Assembly (NCBI GenBank): GCA_017505635.1
Contig: JAFVOU010000034.1
Location: forward strand, 1-64,000
Direction of reading: 5' to 3'
Source of the DNA: Oscillospiraceae bacterium
GTDB taxonomy: Bacteria > Bacillota > Clostridia > Oscillospirales > Ruminococcaceae
Length of the DNA: 64,000 nucleotides
In this document: positions 11,560 to 18,751 of the stretch, piece after piece
Layout of the letters: each line of letters opens with the position of its first letter
How positions within the stretch are numbered: position 1 is the stretch's first letter
Position numbers and translations under genes: made by a program
The notes under the pieces: generated by a model
The model's database searches: none
What the model was told of the DNA's origin: nothing
What the model saw: only the letters and a program-made list of their open reading frames with translations

Positions 11560-11726
11560 TCATAGGGGGCTTACTTGCTCGCCGCAGACGGCAGACCCCT
11601 TGTCACCTTTGGTGACATTCCCCTAGCAGGGGCACCCTGCATGACGCATTTTCTCACGACAAAGCGCGAGAAAATTGCTGCCACCCCCATAGATGAAATC
11701 GCCACATGCCCTTCGGCGTGGCTGAT
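11560..11726 (+). repeat. Family B hairpin repeat, copy B1
   Basis: The element is bounded by TCATAGGGGG (11560-11569) and CCCCCATAGATGA (11684-11696); its outer arms TCAT/ATGA and GGGGG/CCCCC pair. Inside is a stem GCATTTTCTCACG/CGCGAGAAAATTGC around ACAAAG. A second hairpin, GCCAC...GTGGC around a CTTCGG-type loop, follows to 11726. The copy at 18638-18751 has the same plan with compensating base changes. This copy carries an extra 50-base insert after the left arm. Confidence 0.75.
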
Positions 11727-11787
11727 ATACAAAATGTATAAATTCCTGAATACATATTTGCCTGACGGCATAATGAAAGGAAAAACT

Positions 11788-12948
11788 ATGAACTGCGAAA
11801 AACTTTTTTATAACGACAGCTATGCAACAACATTTACTGCAGAGGTTGTGGACTGCTTTGAAAACAAGGACCACTTTGCCATTGTGCTGGACAAAACCCT
11901 GTTTTATCCCGAAGGCGGCGGTCAGCCCTGTGACCACGGGGTTATCCGTTTTGGCGACAATGTGACAGAAATTTTTGACGTGCGCGAAAAAAACGGCATT
12001 ATCTGCCATTACAGCCGCACACCGATAGACATCGGCACCGTTATCGAAGGCGAAATTGACTTTGAACGCCGTTTTGACCTGATGCAGCAGCACACAGGCG
12101 AACATATCTTCTCCGGTATTGTGTACAAGCTTTTCGGCTATGCCAACGTGGGCTTTCATCTTAATGAAAAGGATATGTCCCTTGATTTCAGCGGACCTCT
12201 CACAAAGGAAGATATCGACCGCTGTGTTGAACTTTCCAACGAAATTATCCTTAAAAACCAGCCGGTTACAGCTGATTATCCCGATATTTCCAAAATAGAA
12301 TACCGCAGCAAAAAAGCACTGGAAGGTCCTGTGCGCATTGTTACTGCAGGGGATGCTGATGTTTGCGCCTGCTGCGGCACACATCTTGCAACAACAGGTC
12401 AGGTACAGATGGTTGCTGTTACCGACAGCATGAACTATAAGGGCGGCACAAGGGTGTTTATCGGATGCGGCAAACGCGTTTTTGCCGATTATATGGCAAA
12501 AAATCAGCAGTGTCTTGATATAAGCCACGCACTGAGCGCAAAAACCGACGAAATTCACAGCAAGGTTAATGATAAAATAACCGAGTGCGAAAACCTTAAA
12601 GCAGCACTCAGCGCTGCAAAGGACGAGCTGTTCAGCTTCTGGACAGAAGCCGTGCCTGCAGGTGATGTGGGCTTTATGGCAAAGGACGGTCTTTCCAGTG
12701 TGGAAGTTCAGCGTCTGTGTGCAAAAATCAACGAAAAATGCACTACCGCCTGCGTTGTTTCAAAACAGGCTGACGGCACAAGCAAAATCTGCCTTTTCTC
12801 CTCTGCCTGCGATACAAACAAGGTGGGCAGGGCAATATGCACAGCTCTTGGCGGCAAGGGCGGCGGCAAACCCGGTATTTTCCAGGGCACATTCACAGCA
12901 GACGGCGATGTGGAAAGCCTTTTAAAAGGAGCTTTAAATGATAAGTGA
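11788..12948 (+). CDS. alaX: Alanyl-tRNA editing protein AlaX (long form)
   Basis: The 386-aa protein is a free-standing relative of the alanyl-tRNA synthetase editing region. It hydrolyses Ser-tRNA(Ala) and so prevents mistranslation. After a beta-barrel segment with LFYPEGGGQPC comes the zinc-binding editing site: HTGEH (His102, His106) and CACCGTH (Cys195/196, His199). The last 100 residues look like a DHHA1 domain, including GGKGGGKPG. The start at 11788 follows GAAAGGAAAAACT. The frame is open upstream to 11575, but that part is translated repeat B1. The next small gene overlaps its end by 11 bases. Confidence 0.93.
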   Translation: MNCEKLFYNDSYATTFTAEVVDCFENKDHFAIVLDKTLFYPEGGGQPCDHGVIRFGDNVTEIFDVREKNGIICHYSRTPIDIGTVIEGEIDFERRFDLMQQHTGEHIFSGIVYKLFGYANVGFHLNEKDMSLDFSGPLTKEDIDRCVELSNEIILKNQPVTADYPDISKIEYRSKKALEGPVRIVTAGDADVCACCGTHLATTGQVQMVAVTDSMNYKGGTRVFIGCGKRVFADYMAKNQQCLDISHALSAKTDEIHSKVNDKITECENLKAALSAAKDELFSFWTEAVPAGDVGFMAKDGLSSVEVQRLCAKINEKCTTACVVSKQADGTSKICLFSSACDTNKVGRAICTALGGKGGGKPGIFQGTFTADGDVESLLKGALNDK

Positions 12949-13162
12949 CAGCATTCTGCGCATTATAAAGGTCAACAACCGTCGCACACCTTTTGATGTT
13001 GACCATTTTTCCATACAGCAGGTCGGCAGAAAGTTTTATGTTTACGCCCACCCTTTTGAAAACAGCTTCAATAAAAAGAAAATCGGCAGCTATGCCGATT
13101 ATGAAACTGCAAAAAAGGTTGTGGACAGCATTATCGACCTTAAACTGCCGACAGAAATATAG
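12938..13162 (+). CDS. Small conserved-looking protein, function unknown
   Basis: The 74-aa protein begins inside the end of alaX, overlapping by 11 bases, with AAAGGAGCTTTAA giving a strong ribosome binding site. The overlap suggests translational coupling. The sequence is a single small alpha/beta domain (DHFSIQQVGRKFYVYAHPF, then SYADYETAKKVVDSI) with no membrane segment or cysteines. It reads like a small 'GGSYADYETA' substrate-presenting or DNA-binding domain, but I cannot name a family. A terminator-like hairpin follows. Confidence 0.75.
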   Translation: MISDSILRIIKVNNRRTPFDVDHFSIQQVGRKFYVYAHPFENSFNKKKIGSYADYETAKKVVDSIIDLKLPTEI

Positions 13163-13171
13163 TTTTTCACA

Positions 13172-13199
13172 GAGGCGGATGCCCACATCCGCCCTTTTA
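13172..13199 (+). terminator. Terminator-like family D hairpin after alaX unit
   Basis: Stem GGCGGATG/CATCCGCC with a four-base loop, followed by CTTTTATTAT. The stem resembles other family D mini-hairpins, so a repeat may have been put to use as terminator. Confidence 0.6.
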
Positions 13200-13252
13200 T
13201 TATCCATCTTTACGGGACGGTGTGGGCAGTCCCCCCTACATATACAAACATT

Positions 13253-13978
13253 ATGGCTCACAGATATTTTTTAACCGATATAAACCAAAACACCGCCACT
13301 GTTACCGACAGCGAAGCGGTGCACCTTTGCCGCGTTATGCGTATAAAAAGCGGTGACGAGGTAATACTGTGTGATAACAACGGCTATGATTACCGTGCTG
13401 TTGCAAGGGATATCAGCGAAAAGATTATCACCTTTGATATTATAGAAAAAACAAAAAATCAGGCTGAACCTGCAAAAGACCTTGTGGTATATATGGCTTT
13501 GCCAAAAAGCGACAAGCTGGAATTTATTGTGCAGAAGGCCTGCGAACTTGGCGCAAGAAAGCTTGTGCCTTTTGTAAGCGAGTTCTGCGTTGCGCAGAAA
13601 AGCAAAAAGGAAGACAGCAAAAAGGTGCGCCTTGCAAAGATAAGTGCCGAAGCAGCAAAACAGTGCGGCAGAAGCACACCTATGGAGATAGGCGACACAC
13701 TTACCCTTAAACAGCTGCTGGCTGAAATGAAGAAAAACGACATAAACCTTTTCTTCTACGAGCACGCAGATATGCCACTTAAAGAGGCAAACCTTGCGGA
13801 TAAGCAGTCTGTTGGGGTTATCATAGGCAGTGAGGGCGGTTTCAGCGAAAAGGAATGTGCCCTTTTTGCCGAAAACGGCGCTGTTACAATAAGCCTCGGC
13901 AAACGCATTCTGCGCTGTGAAACTGCCGCGGTAAGCGCAATTACCCTTGCGATGTACAACATGGGAGAAATGGAGTAA
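13253..13978 (+). CDS. rsmE: 16S rRNA m3U1498 methyltransferase RsmE
   Basis: The 241-aa protein is a SPOUT-class methyltransferase that methylates N3 of U1498 in 16S rRNA. It has an N-terminal PUA-like domain (HLCRVMRIKSGDEVILCD) and the C-terminal knot with GSEGGFSEKE (SAM loop) and LGKRILRCETA. The start at 13253 fits family length, but no clear Shine-Dalgarno precedes it: the region just upstream is a repeat-like stretch. The in-frame ATG at 13220 is no better supported. Three bases separate its stop from the start of the VanY-type gene, so the two are an operon. Confidence 0.93.
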   Translation: MAHRYFLTDINQNTATVTDSEAVHLCRVMRIKSGDEVILCDNNGYDYRAVARDISEKIITFDIIEKTKNQAEPAKDLVVYMALPKSDKLEFIVQKACELGARKLVPFVSEFCVAQKSKKEDSKKVRLAKISAEAAKQCGRSTPMEIGDTLTLKQLLAEMKKNDINLFFYEHADMPLKEANLADKQSVGVIIGSEGGFSEKECALFAENGAVTISLGKRILRCETAAVSAITLAMYNMGEME

Positions 13979-13980
13979 AT

Positions 13981-14916
13981 ATGACAAGAGAACAGGCAGA
14001 AAAATTACGACAGCAGAGACGCCGCCAGCGTCTGCGCAAAAAAAGAATAAAGGCTTTCGGTCTGCTGGCATTTTTTATAATCATTGTTTTTTCGGTTGTG
14101 TTTTTTGCAATCAAAGGCATTGGTTATCTTAAATCAGGCAGTGAAGGCCAGGACCTTGAAAACCCTATCGGCAACGCAGGTATTATAACCGAAGAAAACG
14201 GCGAAGGCGAAAACAGTGACAGCACTGCAGAAGAAACCCCTGCACCTGAAGTGACACCCGAACCTGATGTGACACCTGCACCAACCGAAGAACCTGCAAA
14301 CACCACCCCTGTAGGCACAAAACCGGAGCAGAGCTGGAGCACAATGCTGGTTAACAAATGGAGCTATATGCCCGAAGGCTATGTGCCTGACGTACGCGAA
14401 ATATCCTATGACGGTGTAAGCCCCCTCAACAACAAATTTGATGTGCGTGCGGCAGATGCCCTTGAACTTATGCTGGCAGACGCAAGGGCTGCAGGCTATA
14501 ATATGTATCTTGTAAGTGCATACCGCAGCCACGATTATCAGGTAAACCTTTTCAACCGCAAGGTCAACGAATACAAGGCACTTGGATACGATGATGCCAC
14601 AGCCCATGAACAGGCAAGCCAGTGGGTTGCTATTCCGGGCACAAGCGAACACTGCACAGGTCTTGCTGCAGATATTGTTTCTTCCACCTGGTACAACCAC
14701 AACAGTGACCTCACCCACGATTTTGAGGACACCGAACATTTTGACTGGCTGTACGAACACTGCGCAGACTATGGCTTTATCCTGCGATATCCAAAAGGTG
14801 CAGAAGCTGTGACAGGCATAACCTACGAACCGTGGCACTATCGTTTTGTAGGCGTAGAGGCGGCAAAATATATTATGGACAACCACATTACTCTGGAAGA
14901 GTTCTGTGCACAGTAA
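13981..14916 (+). CDS. VanY-type D-Ala-D-Ala carboxypeptidase (M15B)
   Basis: The 311-aa protein is anchored by one membrane segment (about residues 24-46). A Pro/Glu/Thr-rich linker with TPAPEVTPEPDVTPAPTEEP follows, then an extracytoplasmic M15B peptidase domain. Zinc and catalytic motifs are visible: SAYRS, PGTSEHCTGLAADI (His and Asp ligands) and EPWHYRFVG. It should trim the terminal D-Ala from peptidoglycan stem peptides. There is no vanS/vanR or ligase nearby, so it is a housekeeping form rather than glycopeptide resistance. The ATG lies two bases after the rsmE stop with ATGGAG upstream. Confidence 0.92.
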   Translation: MTREQAEKLRQQRRRQRLRKKRIKAFGLLAFFIIIVFSVVFFAIKGIGYLKSGSEGQDLENPIGNAGIITEENGEGENSDSTAEETPAPEVTPEPDVTPAPTEEPANTTPVGTKPEQSWSTMLVNKWSYMPEGYVPDVREISYDGVSPLNNKFDVRAADALELMLADARAAGYNMYLVSAYRSHDYQVNLFNRKVNEYKALGYDDATAHEQASQWVAIPGTSEHCTGLAADIVSSTWYNHNSDLTHDFEDTEHFDWLYEHCADYGFILRYPKGAEAVTGITYEPWHYRFVGVEAAKYIMDNHITLEEFCAQ

Positions 14917-14998
14917 CCGCACAAAAGTCCATTGATTTTTTAATCAGTATGTAGTATCATTATTATCAGCAAATATCCAAGGCAGGTACCCTTTTATT

Positions 14999-15259
14999 AT
15001 GAATATTCAGGAAATCAAAAACGAAATATCTGTTATCAATGACGAAATGCTGAAGCTTTTTATCCGTCATCTGGACCTTACTGTTGAAGCAGGCAAACTG
15101 CGTGAGGCAGACGGCAAACCGCTGTATGACAGAAAGGCAGAAGAAGCAACTCTGGAGTTTGCTGCCTCCAACAGCCCGCAGAATATGCAGAACTATTCCA
15201 TCGAATTTTTCCGCAGTCTGATAAATCTGAGCAAAGAATATTACAAAGATAACAAATAA
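14999..15259 (+). CDS. Chorismate mutase type II-like (AroQ) small protein
   Basis: The 86-aa all-helical protein has the AroQ pattern: an N-terminal IQEIKNEISVINDEMLKLF helix, FIRHLDLTVEAGKLREADG, and PLYDRKAEEATL. In AroQ enzymes these hold the Arg, Lys and Asp/Glu residues that rearrange chorismate to prephenate. The usual first-helix Arg is replaced here, because the segment reads EIKNEIS, so activity is uncertain. No other shikimate gene lies nearby. AGGTACC precedes the ATG and a clean terminator follows 20 bases after the stop. Confidence 0.65.
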   Translation: MNIQEIKNEISVINDEMLKLFIRHLDLTVEAGKLREADGKPLYDRKAEEATLEFAASNSPQNMQNYSIEFFRSLINLSKEYYKDNK

Positions 15260-15278
15260 TATTTCGCAGATGTAAAAA

Positions 15279-15309
15279 ACCGCAGTCGGCTGACTGCGGT
15301 TTTGTTTTT
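15279..15309 (+). terminator. Terminator of the chorismate mutase-like gene
   Basis: Stem ACCGCAGTC/GACTGCGGT with loop GGCT, followed by TTTTGTTTTTG. Confidence 0.85.
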
Positions 15310-15332
15310 GTATAAATTTATACATAACAAAA

Positions 15333-15356
15333 AAAGGACGGCAAAAACCGTCCTTT
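15333..15356 (-). terminator. Terminator of the CD0519/CD1768-type gene
   Basis: Stem AAGGACGG/CCGTCCTT; on the minus strand it is followed by TTTTTTGTT. It lies 13 bases after the stop codon at 15369. Confidence 0.8.
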
Positions 15357-15368
15357 ATAATAATCTGA

Positions 15369-16520
15369 TTAAATCATACCAAAGAGCATGCAGAGGTAGT
15401 GTGCTGCAACACCTGCGCACAGACCGCCGATTGTGTGGCTGAAAAGTGCGTCTTTGATAAACTGTCTTTTGTCAAGAGCGTCCATCATGGAGATGTGTGT
15501 GGAGAGGTAACCGGACCAGCACATACCCATAGCTGTAAATACTGCGATTTCGTTGAGACCTGCTGCGCCTTCTGCAATCATTGTTGGAACAAGGCCCATA
15601 GCTGCGCCTGTTGCACCAAGAGCTGTTATTGGGAATGCGATGTTAGATGGGTCACGGAAACCGAAGAGCACGTTTGTAACAGGCTGGATAAGAGAGCCGA
15701 GTTTTGGAAGGAGACCAACACCTTCGTATGCTGCACCTGTAAAGCCTGCTGCAGGTGGGTTGAATGTGAGCATCATAACAACTGTGCAGATAACAAGAAC
15801 GCCAGGAACAATTGCAAAGCCCATATCTACACCTGTTTTACCGCCTTCGAGAAGAGCGTTGAGAACACGTTCGAGTGTGGAGCCGTTAACTGTTTTGAGT
15901 TCGTCTTCCATTTTTGGTGCGCCTTTGATAGCACGGTCTGCTTTTGCTTCTTCTTTGGAAACATTGTAGTATTTTTTTGTTGCACGGAGCATAAGACGTA
16001 CAGATACTACAGAACCTACGCAAGCACCGAGAACACCAACGAGGGATGCTGTGAGTGCGCCTTCCAGCGGAAGTGCAAGCATGTATGTACAAAGGATAAG
16101 ACCCATACCAAAGGAAGTACCAAGGTTGCACAGTGCAGGAATCTGATATTCTTTGAAGAATTTTGTAAAGCTTTCGTTTTTAGCTGTGGAAAGAATTGCT
16201 GCGTTGTCGGATACGAATGTTGTAACGATACCAAGGGAAGCTGCGCCAGGCATGCCGTAGATTGGTCTCATAAGTGGGCTGATAAGTTTGTTGAGAAGGT
16301 CGATAACGCCAAATTCTGCAAAGATGGAAGCGATAGCACCTGTAACAACAGAGATAGCCATAATAAAGAAACATGTGTTGAGAAGAAGGTCGTGTGCTGT
16401 GTTCATAATTGTGTTGAACATATTGCCGATGCCCATTACATTGCCGAGAAGGCAGAGGCCGCCAATGATTACAACCAGAACAACAAATGTTTCAAGGGAA
16501 ACCGCTTTTTTCTGTTTCAT
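15369..16520 (-). CDS. CD0519/CD1768-family membrane transporter (Gate domains)
   Basis: The 383-aa protein has about ten membrane segments. It belongs to the clostridial CD0519/CD1768 group related to the nucleoside-recognition Gate domain of SpmA/SpmB and FeoB. Two similar halves are visible: one with VVTGAIASIFAEFGVIDLL and TFVSDNAAILSTAK, the other with FGFRDPSNIAFPITALGATG. The DNAAIL and FRDPSNI stretches recall conserved Gate-domain loops. The substrate is unknown. It is a single gene with its own terminator, flanked by a 5' AT-rich spacer. GGAGGAAAAA precedes the ATG. Confidence 0.85.
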   Translation of the reverse strand: MKQKKAVSLETFVVLVVIIGGLCLLGNVMGIGNMFNTIMNTAHDLLLNTCFFIMAISVVTGAIASIFAEFGVIDLLNKLISPLMRPIYGMPGAASLGIVTTFVSDNAAILSTAKNESFTKFFKEYQIPALCNLGTSFGMGLILCTYMLALPLEGALTASLVGVLGACVGSVVSVRLMLRATKKYYNVSKEEAKADRAIKGAPKMEDELKTVNGSTLERVLNALLEGGKTGVDMGFAIVPGVLVICTVVMMLTFNPPAAGFTGAAYEGVGLLPKLGSLIQPVTNVLFGFRDPSNIAFPITALGATGAAMGLVPTMIAEGAAGLNEIAVFTAMGMCWSGYLSTHISMMDALDKRQFIKDALFSHTIGGLCAGVAAHYLCMLFGMI

Positions 16521-16607
16521 TTTTTCCTCCGAAAAATTTTGTGATATACTTTTATTTTTTGATTGTTAATTTATATATAACAGACCTTTTGTCTGCTATT
16601 TACTGTT

Positions 16608-17273
16608 TTATCTGCCGTATGGGCAATGGCTGATGCACAGTCCGCAAACTGCACCGCGGCCGATGTTTTTGTATTCCCTTTTCATAAATTCACTGCATTT
16701 TGCAGGATTGAAAAAACTGTCGCGGTCTGTTGACCAGTTTTTGCCGCTGATAGCGCCGCTTGGGCATTTTTCCCTGCAGATGTTGCAGTGTGTGCAAGGG
16801 TGCGGCGGAAATTCTGTCGGGTTTTCAAACTGACAGTCGGTAAACACTGTGCCAAGGCGCACCTTTGCGCCGTATTCCCTGTGTAAAAACAGACAGTTGT
16901 TGCCCATATTGCCAAGACCTGCAAGGCAGGCAATTTTTTTGTGGCTGTATCTGCCGCGGTAAAACCAGCCTTCGTCATTTATGGACTGACTGGAAGCAAC
17001 GGTGATGTATTTATAGCCGTGTTTATCCAGCAGCAGACCAACCCTTAAAAGGCAGTGGTCGATAAAGGCATTTATACTGCGGTAGTGATTAAAGTATGTA
17101 TGTGTGGGCTTGTCCTGCACTTCGGCAAGGATGGCAGGTGAAAGATGCACCACAATGCTTACTGCGTTGCTGAGCCCGCCGATGCCGTCACCTTCTTCGG
17201 TGTGGCAGAAGCCCACATCGCTTACCCCAAGGGATAAAAGCATCTCTTTAATTTCTGTCTGTATCTGTGTCAT
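16608..17273 (-). CDS. QueG-like double [4Fe-4S] reductase
   Basis: The 221-aa protein resembles the C-terminal part of epoxyqueuosine reductase (QueG). It carries the ferredoxin motifs CTHCNICREKCPSGAI and CGLCISHCPYGR near its C-terminus, and GLGNMGNNCLFLHREYGAKVR before them. True QueG is about 300-380 aa and contains a cobalamin-binding region, so this shorter form is likely a related epoxyqueuosine reductase-like ferredoxin protein of unknown substrate. Clostridia often carry such paralogues. It stands alone: spacers of 87 and 128 bases separate it from its neighbours. Confidence 0.85.
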   Translation of the reverse strand: MTQIQTEIKEMLLSLGVSDVGFCHTEEGDGIGGLSNAVSIVVHLSPAILAEVQDKPTHTYFNHYRSINAFIDHCLLRVGLLLDKHGYKYITVASSQSINDEGWFYRGRYSHKKIACLAGLGNMGNNCLFLHREYGAKVRLGTVFTDCQFENPTEFPPHPCTHCNICREKCPSGAISGKNWSTDRDSFFNPAKCSEFMKREYKNIGRGAVCGLCISHCPYGR

Positions 17274-17401
17274 ATTATAAAGCCCATCCTTTTTATTGTA
17301 CCATAAATTAGACTAAAGTATATTGTGAATTTTTACAAATTAATGGTATTTTATTGCCTGCAAACTGTCGAACTTGTGATTACAAGATAAAAAAATAACA
17401 C

Positions 17402-18616
17402 CTATTTAAACAAATCGCTTTTCATAACCGATGCTGACTGCACTGCATCCCTGCCGTATTTGTCTTTGATTTTATCAAGGGCTTTCTGCAGGTTTTCCTT
17501 TTTTTCATCGGTCTGCCCTTCGGCAGTTTCGAAAAGGTTAAGCTGACGGACGCGTTTTTCCTCACTTGGGTCAAGGGCAGTTACGGTGAGTGCACGGATT
17601 GGCATCTTTACATTCCAGTTTTTAACCAGCAGTTCCAGTGCTGCTTTGTAGATATTTTCGGTAACATTTGTAGACTGAACCTGCTTTTGTCTTGTAAAGG
17701 AGACGAAAGCAGGATTTTTTATTGTTATCTGCACACCGTTGGCATACAAGCCGTGCTTGCGCAGGCGCATGCCCACCTGTTCGCTGAGCACCATAAGGGC
17801 AGGTTTTATATCCTCAAGTCCGCTTATGTCACGGCTGAATGTGTTGCCGCTGCCAACCGATTTGACCTCGCGCTTTGCATCAAAGGGCTGCACGGGGCTC
17901 TTTTCCAGTCCGTTGGCATAGATGTACAGGTCGTGGCCGTGTTTGCCGAATTTGTCCTCCAGCAGTTCTCTGTCGGTTGCGGCAAGCTGACCGATTGTGC
18001 GTATGCCCATTGCGTTAAGGGCATCCTTTGTGCTTTTGCCCACAAAAAGCAGGTCCTCCACTTTAAGGGGAAAGACAATATCTTTATAGTTTTCTCTTGA
18101 AATAACAGTAGTGGCATTTGGCTTTTTGTAGTCGCTGCCAAGCTTTGCAAACACCTTGTTGAAGCTGACCCCCACCGAAATGGTAAGGCCTGTTTCGTAG
18201 TAAACACGTTCCCTTATCATATAGGCAAGTTCTTTGCCGTCCTTTGCAAAAAGATGACAGCTGTTGGTGACATCCAGCCAGCTTTCGTCAATGCCGAAAG
18301 GTTCCACAAGGTCGGTGTAGCTGTTGTAGATTTCGTTGATTATTTTGCTGAAATATTCGTACCGCTGTCGCTGCGGCGGCAGAATAACAAGGTCAGGGCA
18401 CACTTTAAGCGCAGATGCGATTGTCTGCGCTGTTTTTATGCCGTATTTTTTTGCCGCCTCGTTTTTGGCAAGCACAATACCGTGGCGTGTCTGCTGGTTG
18501 CCCCCTACAACAACGGGTTTGTCTTTAAGTTCCGGATAAGGCAGCAGCGAAACGGAGGCGTAAAAGCTGTTGCAGTCGCAGTGGAGAATTATACGGTCTT
18601 TATTCTGTTGTTCCAT
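17402..18616 (-). CDS. dinB: Y-family DNA polymerase IV (DinB)
   Basis: The 404-aa protein is a lesion-bypass polymerase. Catalytic carboxylates are in LHCDCNSFYAS (Asp14) and FGIDESWLDVT (Asp110, Glu111), where most DinB proteins read SIDEAYLD. The DNA-binding GIRTIGQLAA helix-hairpin-helix and the little-finger domain (SVGSGNTFSRDI) follow. Near the C-terminus QLNLFE matches the sliding-clamp binding motif. No LexA-type operator is obvious upstream. Instead a family B repeat starts 21 bases before the gene. AAAGGGGAATTGTT precedes the ATG. Confidence 0.93.
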   Translation of the reverse strand: MEQQNKDRIILHCDCNSFYASVSLLPYPELKDKPVVVGGNQQTRHGIVLAKNEAAKKYGIKTAQTIASALKVCPDLVILPPQRQRYEYFSKIINEIYNSYTDLVEPFGIDESWLDVTNSCHLFAKDGKELAYMIRERVYYETGLTISVGVSFNKVFAKLGSDYKKPNATTVISRENYKDIVFPLKVEDLLFVGKSTKDALNAMGIRTIGQLAATDRELLEDKFGKHGHDLYIYANGLEKSPVQPFDAKREVKSVGSGNTFSRDISGLEDIKPALMVLSEQVGMRLRKHGLYANGVQITIKNPAFVSFTRQKQVQSTNVTENIYKAALELLVKNWNVKMPIRALTVTALDPSEEKRVRQLNLFETAEGQTDEKKENLQKALDKIKDKYGRDAVQSASVMKSDLFK

Positions 18617-18637
18617 AACAATTCCCCTTTCTGAACC

Positions 18638-18751
18638 TCATAGGGGGCTTATCCCCCTGCATGACGCATTTTTTCACGACAAAGCGTGAAAAAATATGCT
18701 GTCACCCCCATAGATGAAAGCAGGCTATGCCATTCGGCAGCCTGGCTGTAA
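18638..18751 (+). repeat. Family B hairpin repeat, copy B2
   Basis: Compact copy between the GNAT gene and dinB. Outer arms TCATAGGGGG (18638-18647) and CCCCCATAGATGA (18704-18716) pair through TCAT/ATGA and GGGGG/CCCCC. The inner stem is TTTTTTCACG/CGTGAAAAAA around ACAAAG. A trailing hairpin CAGGCT...AGCCTG replaces GCCAC...GTGGC of B1 while keeping pairing. Confidence 0.75.

Follow-up and report, generated by a model that had tools for sequence, protein, structure and literature searches.

In REP/RAYT systems and in MITEs derived from IS200/IS605, the unit is an imperfect, bulged hairpin with strand-specific placement. Group IIC introns insert behind terminator hairpins, in the orientation of transcription, and the bcr repeats of the Bacillus cereus group are mobile and have a structured transcript. 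The short interspersed repeats BOX, RUP and SPRITE of Streptococcus pneumoniae are folded and considered parasitic; BOX has a modular build, and the pneumococcal copies cluster and insert into one another (PMC3049150).

The repeat described here was found in a 64,000-nt stretch of an Oscillospiraceae genome (contig JAFVOU010000034.1, positions 1 to 64,000; below, the window). Like BOX, RUP and SPRITE, with which it is compared by description only, it appears to behave as a small parasitic folded repeat, but its last hairpin lies outside the inverted arms, it is sited at a terminator hairpin's edge, and that whole hairpin can be repeated. It shares a bulged hairpin and strand-specific placement with REP/RAYT and IS200/IS605 MITEs, but its two ends are dissimilar and Y1 transposase genes do not track it. 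Placement at terminators is as in group IIC introns, whereas neither an Rfam intron match nor a reverse transcriptase accompanies it; the bcr repeats, mobile and structured as well, are a possible parallel but belong to a different host lineage. The best explanation, with a probability of roughly 0.8, is a small non-autonomous mobile DNA element, dependent on its fold and moved in trans, which can be grouped loosely with MITE-, BOX- and REP-like repeats; with no Rfam match, no cognate transposase among the Y1 genes and no short fixed target duplication, it is placed beside the known families rather than within one.

Two copies in the window and a family beyond it

A sequence-only reading of the window had singled out two copies with common boundary arms, an inner stem around an ACAAAG loop and a trailing hairpin, and all of these parts are present in both, on the forward strand. 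Copy 2 (18638–18747 within narrower limits, to 18751 in full; cmsearch 115.5 bits, fold z = -4.33) is a short form of the repeat. Its hairpin 1 (AGGGGG-CTTAT-CCCCCT) is at 18642–18658, hairpin 2 (TGACGCATTTTTTCACG-ACAAAG-CGTGAAAAAATATGCTGTCA) at 18662–18704, the distal arm CCCCCATAGATGA at 18705–18717, and hairpin 3 (AGC-AGGCT-[AT]-GCC-ATTC-GGC-AGCCT-[G]-GCT) at 18719–18747. The 5' G-run pairs locally with 18653–18657 and is also complementary to the C-run of the distal arm, with which it co-varies across copies. Copy 1 (11560–11726, to 11729 in full; cmsearch 76.1 bits in R1 and 83.1 in R2) aligns with other long forms. Its 5' arm TCATAGGGGG (11560–11569) is conserved in the alignment of copies, and set into the loop of its hairpin 1 is an additional module of 61 nt (11574–11634), absent from copy 2 and made up of a GCCG..CGGC hairpin, a TGTCACC-GGTGACA hairpin and a CCCCT-AGGGG pairing. 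Hairpin 2 (TGAC...GCCA, 11642–11683), the distal arm CCCCCATAGATGA (11684–11696) and hairpin 3 (ATC-GCCAC-[AT]-GCC-CTTC-GGC-GTGGC-[T]-GAT, 11698–11726) follow.

Stem sequences had been said to differ between the copies with pairing retained. This is so for TTTTCTC/GAGAAAA in one against TTTTTTC/GAAAAAA in the other, and for GCCAC/GTGGC against AGGCT/AGCCT, but copy 1 has two A-C mispairs in hairpin 2. The description as a compact double hairpin was right as to a compact structured element; the number of hairpins is three, usually with a terminator-like hairpin in addition at the 5' edge. Both named neighbors have Pfam support: a gene downstream of copy 1, on its strand, encodes an AlaX-type protein, and copy 2 lies between a GNAT gene and a dinB-type (IMS) gene on the opposite strand. 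The association with these genes is incidental, however: elsewhere the element neighbors tRNA genes, phage genes and many others.

The left-arm pattern occurs twice in the window at up to one mismatch, against 0.2 expected. The two copies match the covariance model with E values of 3e-24 and 3e-17, scores that are partly circular because both copies are in its training set; the same fold is found in many other genomes. Searching the whole genome with each window copy turned up as many as 14 places, some of them truncated or chance matches, and the genome of the window (G000) holds 13–14 copies. Congeneric genomes gave 93 covariance-model matches (about 90 copies) in 7 of 16, and further copies are found in 15 genera, so the prospect of only two copies anywhere, with no pairing support in distant ones, did not materialize. 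Across the family the distribution is patchy (17 of 298 genomes, 15 of 126 genera, with few candidates scored per genome). An order-wide search, also with few candidates per genome and a weak negative for that reason, found copies in no more than two genomes, which belong to the same family. The cultured strain Hydrogenoanaerobacterium saccharovorans An564 is among the carriers. Most of the genomes surveyed are incomplete metagenome assemblies, and gene calls around the copies are crude.

The Rfam search gave no matches at the gathering score and, up to an E value of 5, nothing credible and no intron; the best weak match on the element was Pistol, at 20.4 bits (gathering score 34.5). Literature searches returned no description of this repeat, which is no proof that none exists. 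It is apparently an undescribed interspersed family of gut and rumen Oscillospiraceae and, as MITEs are, it is short, non-coding, multi-copy and dispersed.

Long forms, with the 61-nt module in the first loop, and short forms without it occur at the same loci: at dinB the form is long in G003 and short in G000 and G004, and at alaX it is long in G000 and G003 and short in G001 and G006. The module also turns up within unrelated repeats of genomes that lack the element and is therefore regarded as an exchangeable part. It recurs in a larger repeat of G009, G011 and G012, which has direct repeats of its target on both sides (tRNA 3' ends or terminators, ~17–53 nt). At several loci the element is joined in a composite to a second repeat, GTACTTTTGACACCAAAAGTACCAAAAGTGGC...GACCTTTGACGCCAGCC. 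The alaX site of G007, where the element is absent, has a relative of that second repeat. At tRNA-Thr in G006, the trailing-hairpin sequences ATGCCATTCGGC / ATGCCATACGGC are present in several tandem repeats 3' of the element, and in a G021 copy hairpin 2 is doubled (two TTGACG...CTGTC[AG]CCCCC units), an instance of modular growth.

Fold and covariation

The repeat is 111–170 nt long, with a core of ~112 nt, and folds into three hairpins. In the better copies of its own genome the common order begins with TCATAGGGGG, a short loop and CCCCCT and continues with TGAC...GTCA, which frames a long A/T-rich stem whose loop resembles ACAAAG. CCCCC[A/T]TAGATGA follows, and the last part is a hairpin with a two-base AT bulge (ATGCCNNNNGGC) and, in most cases, a single bulged base on its far side. 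Taken singly, copies fold better than their dinucleotide shuffles (z -2.9 to -5.3).

The covariation test proposed along with the original two copies supports compensatory pairing both within the genus and in other genera. RNAalifold, run on seven own-genome copies aligned without structural guidance, gave 34 pairs, 14 of them with double changes. In 86 distinct rows from the genus, 92.2% of cells are paired against 72.4% when shuffled and at most 57% in slid controls, percentages that lean upward because the alignment was fitted to the structure; both-sided changes occur in 32 of the 34 pairs. Thirty-seven distinct rows, nearly all from other genera, are 88.6% paired (71.3% shuffled), with double changes in 31 of 34 pairs, although in these rows the apical three pairs of hairpin 2 are retained at only 25%. 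Conservation extends to unpaired motifs, among them the AU bulge.

Where terminal inverted repeats would be sought, the TCATAGGGGG and CCCCC[A/T]TAGATGA arms co-vary, with hairpin 3 beyond the right arm. A 5' GGGG[G/A] goes with a 3' CCCC[C or other] in a three-strand covariation pattern of 54/1/1/6 (p = 8e-7, related loci being not fully independent), and this joint change supports an alternative pairing of the outer arms that would be mutually exclusive with the local pairing of hairpin 1.

Placement, empty sites and phage contigs

The orientation of the element is fixed relative to a neighboring hairpin: its left end usually abuts, on the 3' side, a hairpin that ends in a T-run and in most cases resembles a terminator. 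Such a hairpin is on the left flank of 40 of 69 distinct insertions in the genus, compared with 4.9% of random positions; by a stricter test in other genera, 18 of 26 copies have a terminator-like left flank, compared with 1.5%. At least one third of insertions, including both window copies, have no adjoining terminator. About 27 copies are 3' of a tRNA gene, on the same strand, while relative to protein genes no clear orientation bias was seen with the crude ORF calls. The left end has no fixed 4-nt target, and no short fixed-length target-site duplication of the MITE kind was seen. An attachment-site model, in which the tRNA 3' end is duplicated, was dropped except for the tRNA-Leu loci, since the tRNA end at a copy's own locus came out on top in just 4 of 27 cases, where ~2 were expected.

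Empty orthologous sites, long and short forms at a single locus, a tandem array and copies on phage contigs indicate that the repeat is mobile. Sites without the element, which had been suggested as something to look for in relatives, were found at orthologous loci: at dinB in G001 and G007, at alaX in G002 (with a different repeat in G007), and at a tRNA-Leu locus by an antiporter gene in five genomes, where G007 is occupied. For tRNA-Ser(cga), where the gene that follows is shared between the genomes, G006 is empty and has a single terminator of 34–35 nt; the sequence in G001 and G004 runs terminator, element, short tail, terminator. Behind tRNA-Pro in G003 is a tandem array of four copies and a partial one, with near-identical terminator spacers. 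Phage and plasmid records searched by blastn had no copies, but three phage-type contigs in IMG/VR did, at two unrelated sites. One of these contigs also encodes an integrase and a repressor (PHROGs); the other two are identical over a stretch where the element, directly 3' of a mini-hairpin of 19–21 nt, lies between putative DnaB-like and DnaG-like genes. From reading the proteins, which include a DNA polymerase III alpha-like one, we take this to be a phage-type replication region.

A repeat with these properties could instead be a cis-acting RNA of benefit to its host (a 3'-end stabilizer, secondary terminator or attenuator), selected site by site and only secondarily dispersed. Placement behind terminators and the conserved unpaired motifs would suit such a role, as would the orthologous alaX loci, which keep the fold with different stems (TTCACG/CGTGAA, TTCGCA/TGCGAA, TTCTCG/CGAGAA); structure conserved there could mean selection for a host function. 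We nevertheless consider it unlikely: presence is patchy (15 of 126 genera), the same genes have empty sites and the genes beside copies are unrelated, orientation to protein genes is not clear, with an antisense copy at dinB, and phage contigs carry the element as well.

The flanking hairpin and possible routes of movement

A flanking outer stem spanning 50–56 nt is present at 42 of 100 insertions and at 10 of 800 T-rich controls (p = 7e-35, an exploratory value, since control positions were taken at these very loci and the test came after the span had caught attention). Pairing of its arms is 98% within copies and 40% between arms of different copies; 27 different arm sequences occur. Terminators of element-free tRNA genes, several loci having been sorted by eye, are nearly always 24–37 nt and almost never 50–56 nt, and the rarity of the longer hairpin at empty sites favors its being carried or made during insertion over its being a chosen target. 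At tRNA-Thr, G006 has hairpin plus element, while G004 has a solo, nested hairpin of 53 nt and no element, as would fit loss of the core by recombination between two hairpin copies. The terminator is repeated beyond the element at six sites, with local scores of 16.5–49.5 against a 99% control of 14. These repeated terminators are 43–63 nt long; at five sites the left copy ends within one base of the start of the element, and the sixth is degraded. The far copy is missing at most insertions.

Alternatively, the 50–56-nt hairpins could be ordinary host terminators, with the element spreading by homologous recombination between them. Terminators repeated on both sides are in its favor, and the tandem array could arise in this way. 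Against this are the predominantly short terminators of element-free tRNA genes and the orthologous empty tRNA-Ser site, whose terminator is short as well; this route seems slightly less probable still than a host-selected RNA.

An IS200/IS605- or RAYT-type element, with terminal hairpins recognized by a Y1 (HUH) transposase, is improbable in turn, although the bulged terminal hairpin, strand-specific placement at hairpin targets without a short duplication, and one Y1_Tnp gene in G000 are what such an element might present. Only 2 of the 7 carrier genomes, all judged from incomplete assemblies, have a Y1_Tnp match, as do several non-carriers; the element's ends are not present at the Y1 loci examined; the left and right hairpins are dissimilar; and no fixed 4-nt target accompanies the left end. 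Least probable is a retro-element (a SINE-like RNA or a derivative of a group IIC intron without its ORF, copied by a reverse transcriptase), which would explain terminator-directed, orientation-specific placement, RNA-like covariation and a long terminator duplication, but not the absence of RVT_1 from all 16 genomes of the genus (control positive) or of any intron among the Rfam matches.

With no reverse transcriptase in the genus, a DNA route is likelier. In searches covering Y1 and reverse transcriptase genes and, in part, autonomous relatives, no mobilizing enzyme or autonomous relative was found, and for a non-autonomous mobile element the enzyme would presumably be encoded elsewhere and act on the folded strand. 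That strand, most likely single-stranded or cruciform DNA, would be recognized in trans and joined beside a terminator hairpin; termination of the neighboring gene would thereby be kept, for which reason insertion may be nearly harmless. Much more tentatively, the repeat could represent a shape-directed class of mobile element, in which an enzyme other than a reverse transcriptase joins the three-hairpin strand to a fixed-size, terminator-like hairpin at its 3' edge and repeats that hairpin whole; the core might later be lost by recombination, leaving the solo hairpin, with termination kept throughout.

Strong covariation alone, as this repeat cautions, is not proof of a host regulatory RNA. 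The repeats form a well-supported and, it appears, undescribed family, structured and mobile, which occurs in bacteria of gut and rumen and in their phages and prefers terminator-like hairpins by shape rather than by sequence. We know of no common transposase that repeats a whole hairpin, as is seen here at some sites; that repetition, together with the site preference, makes the enzyme responsible worth finding.
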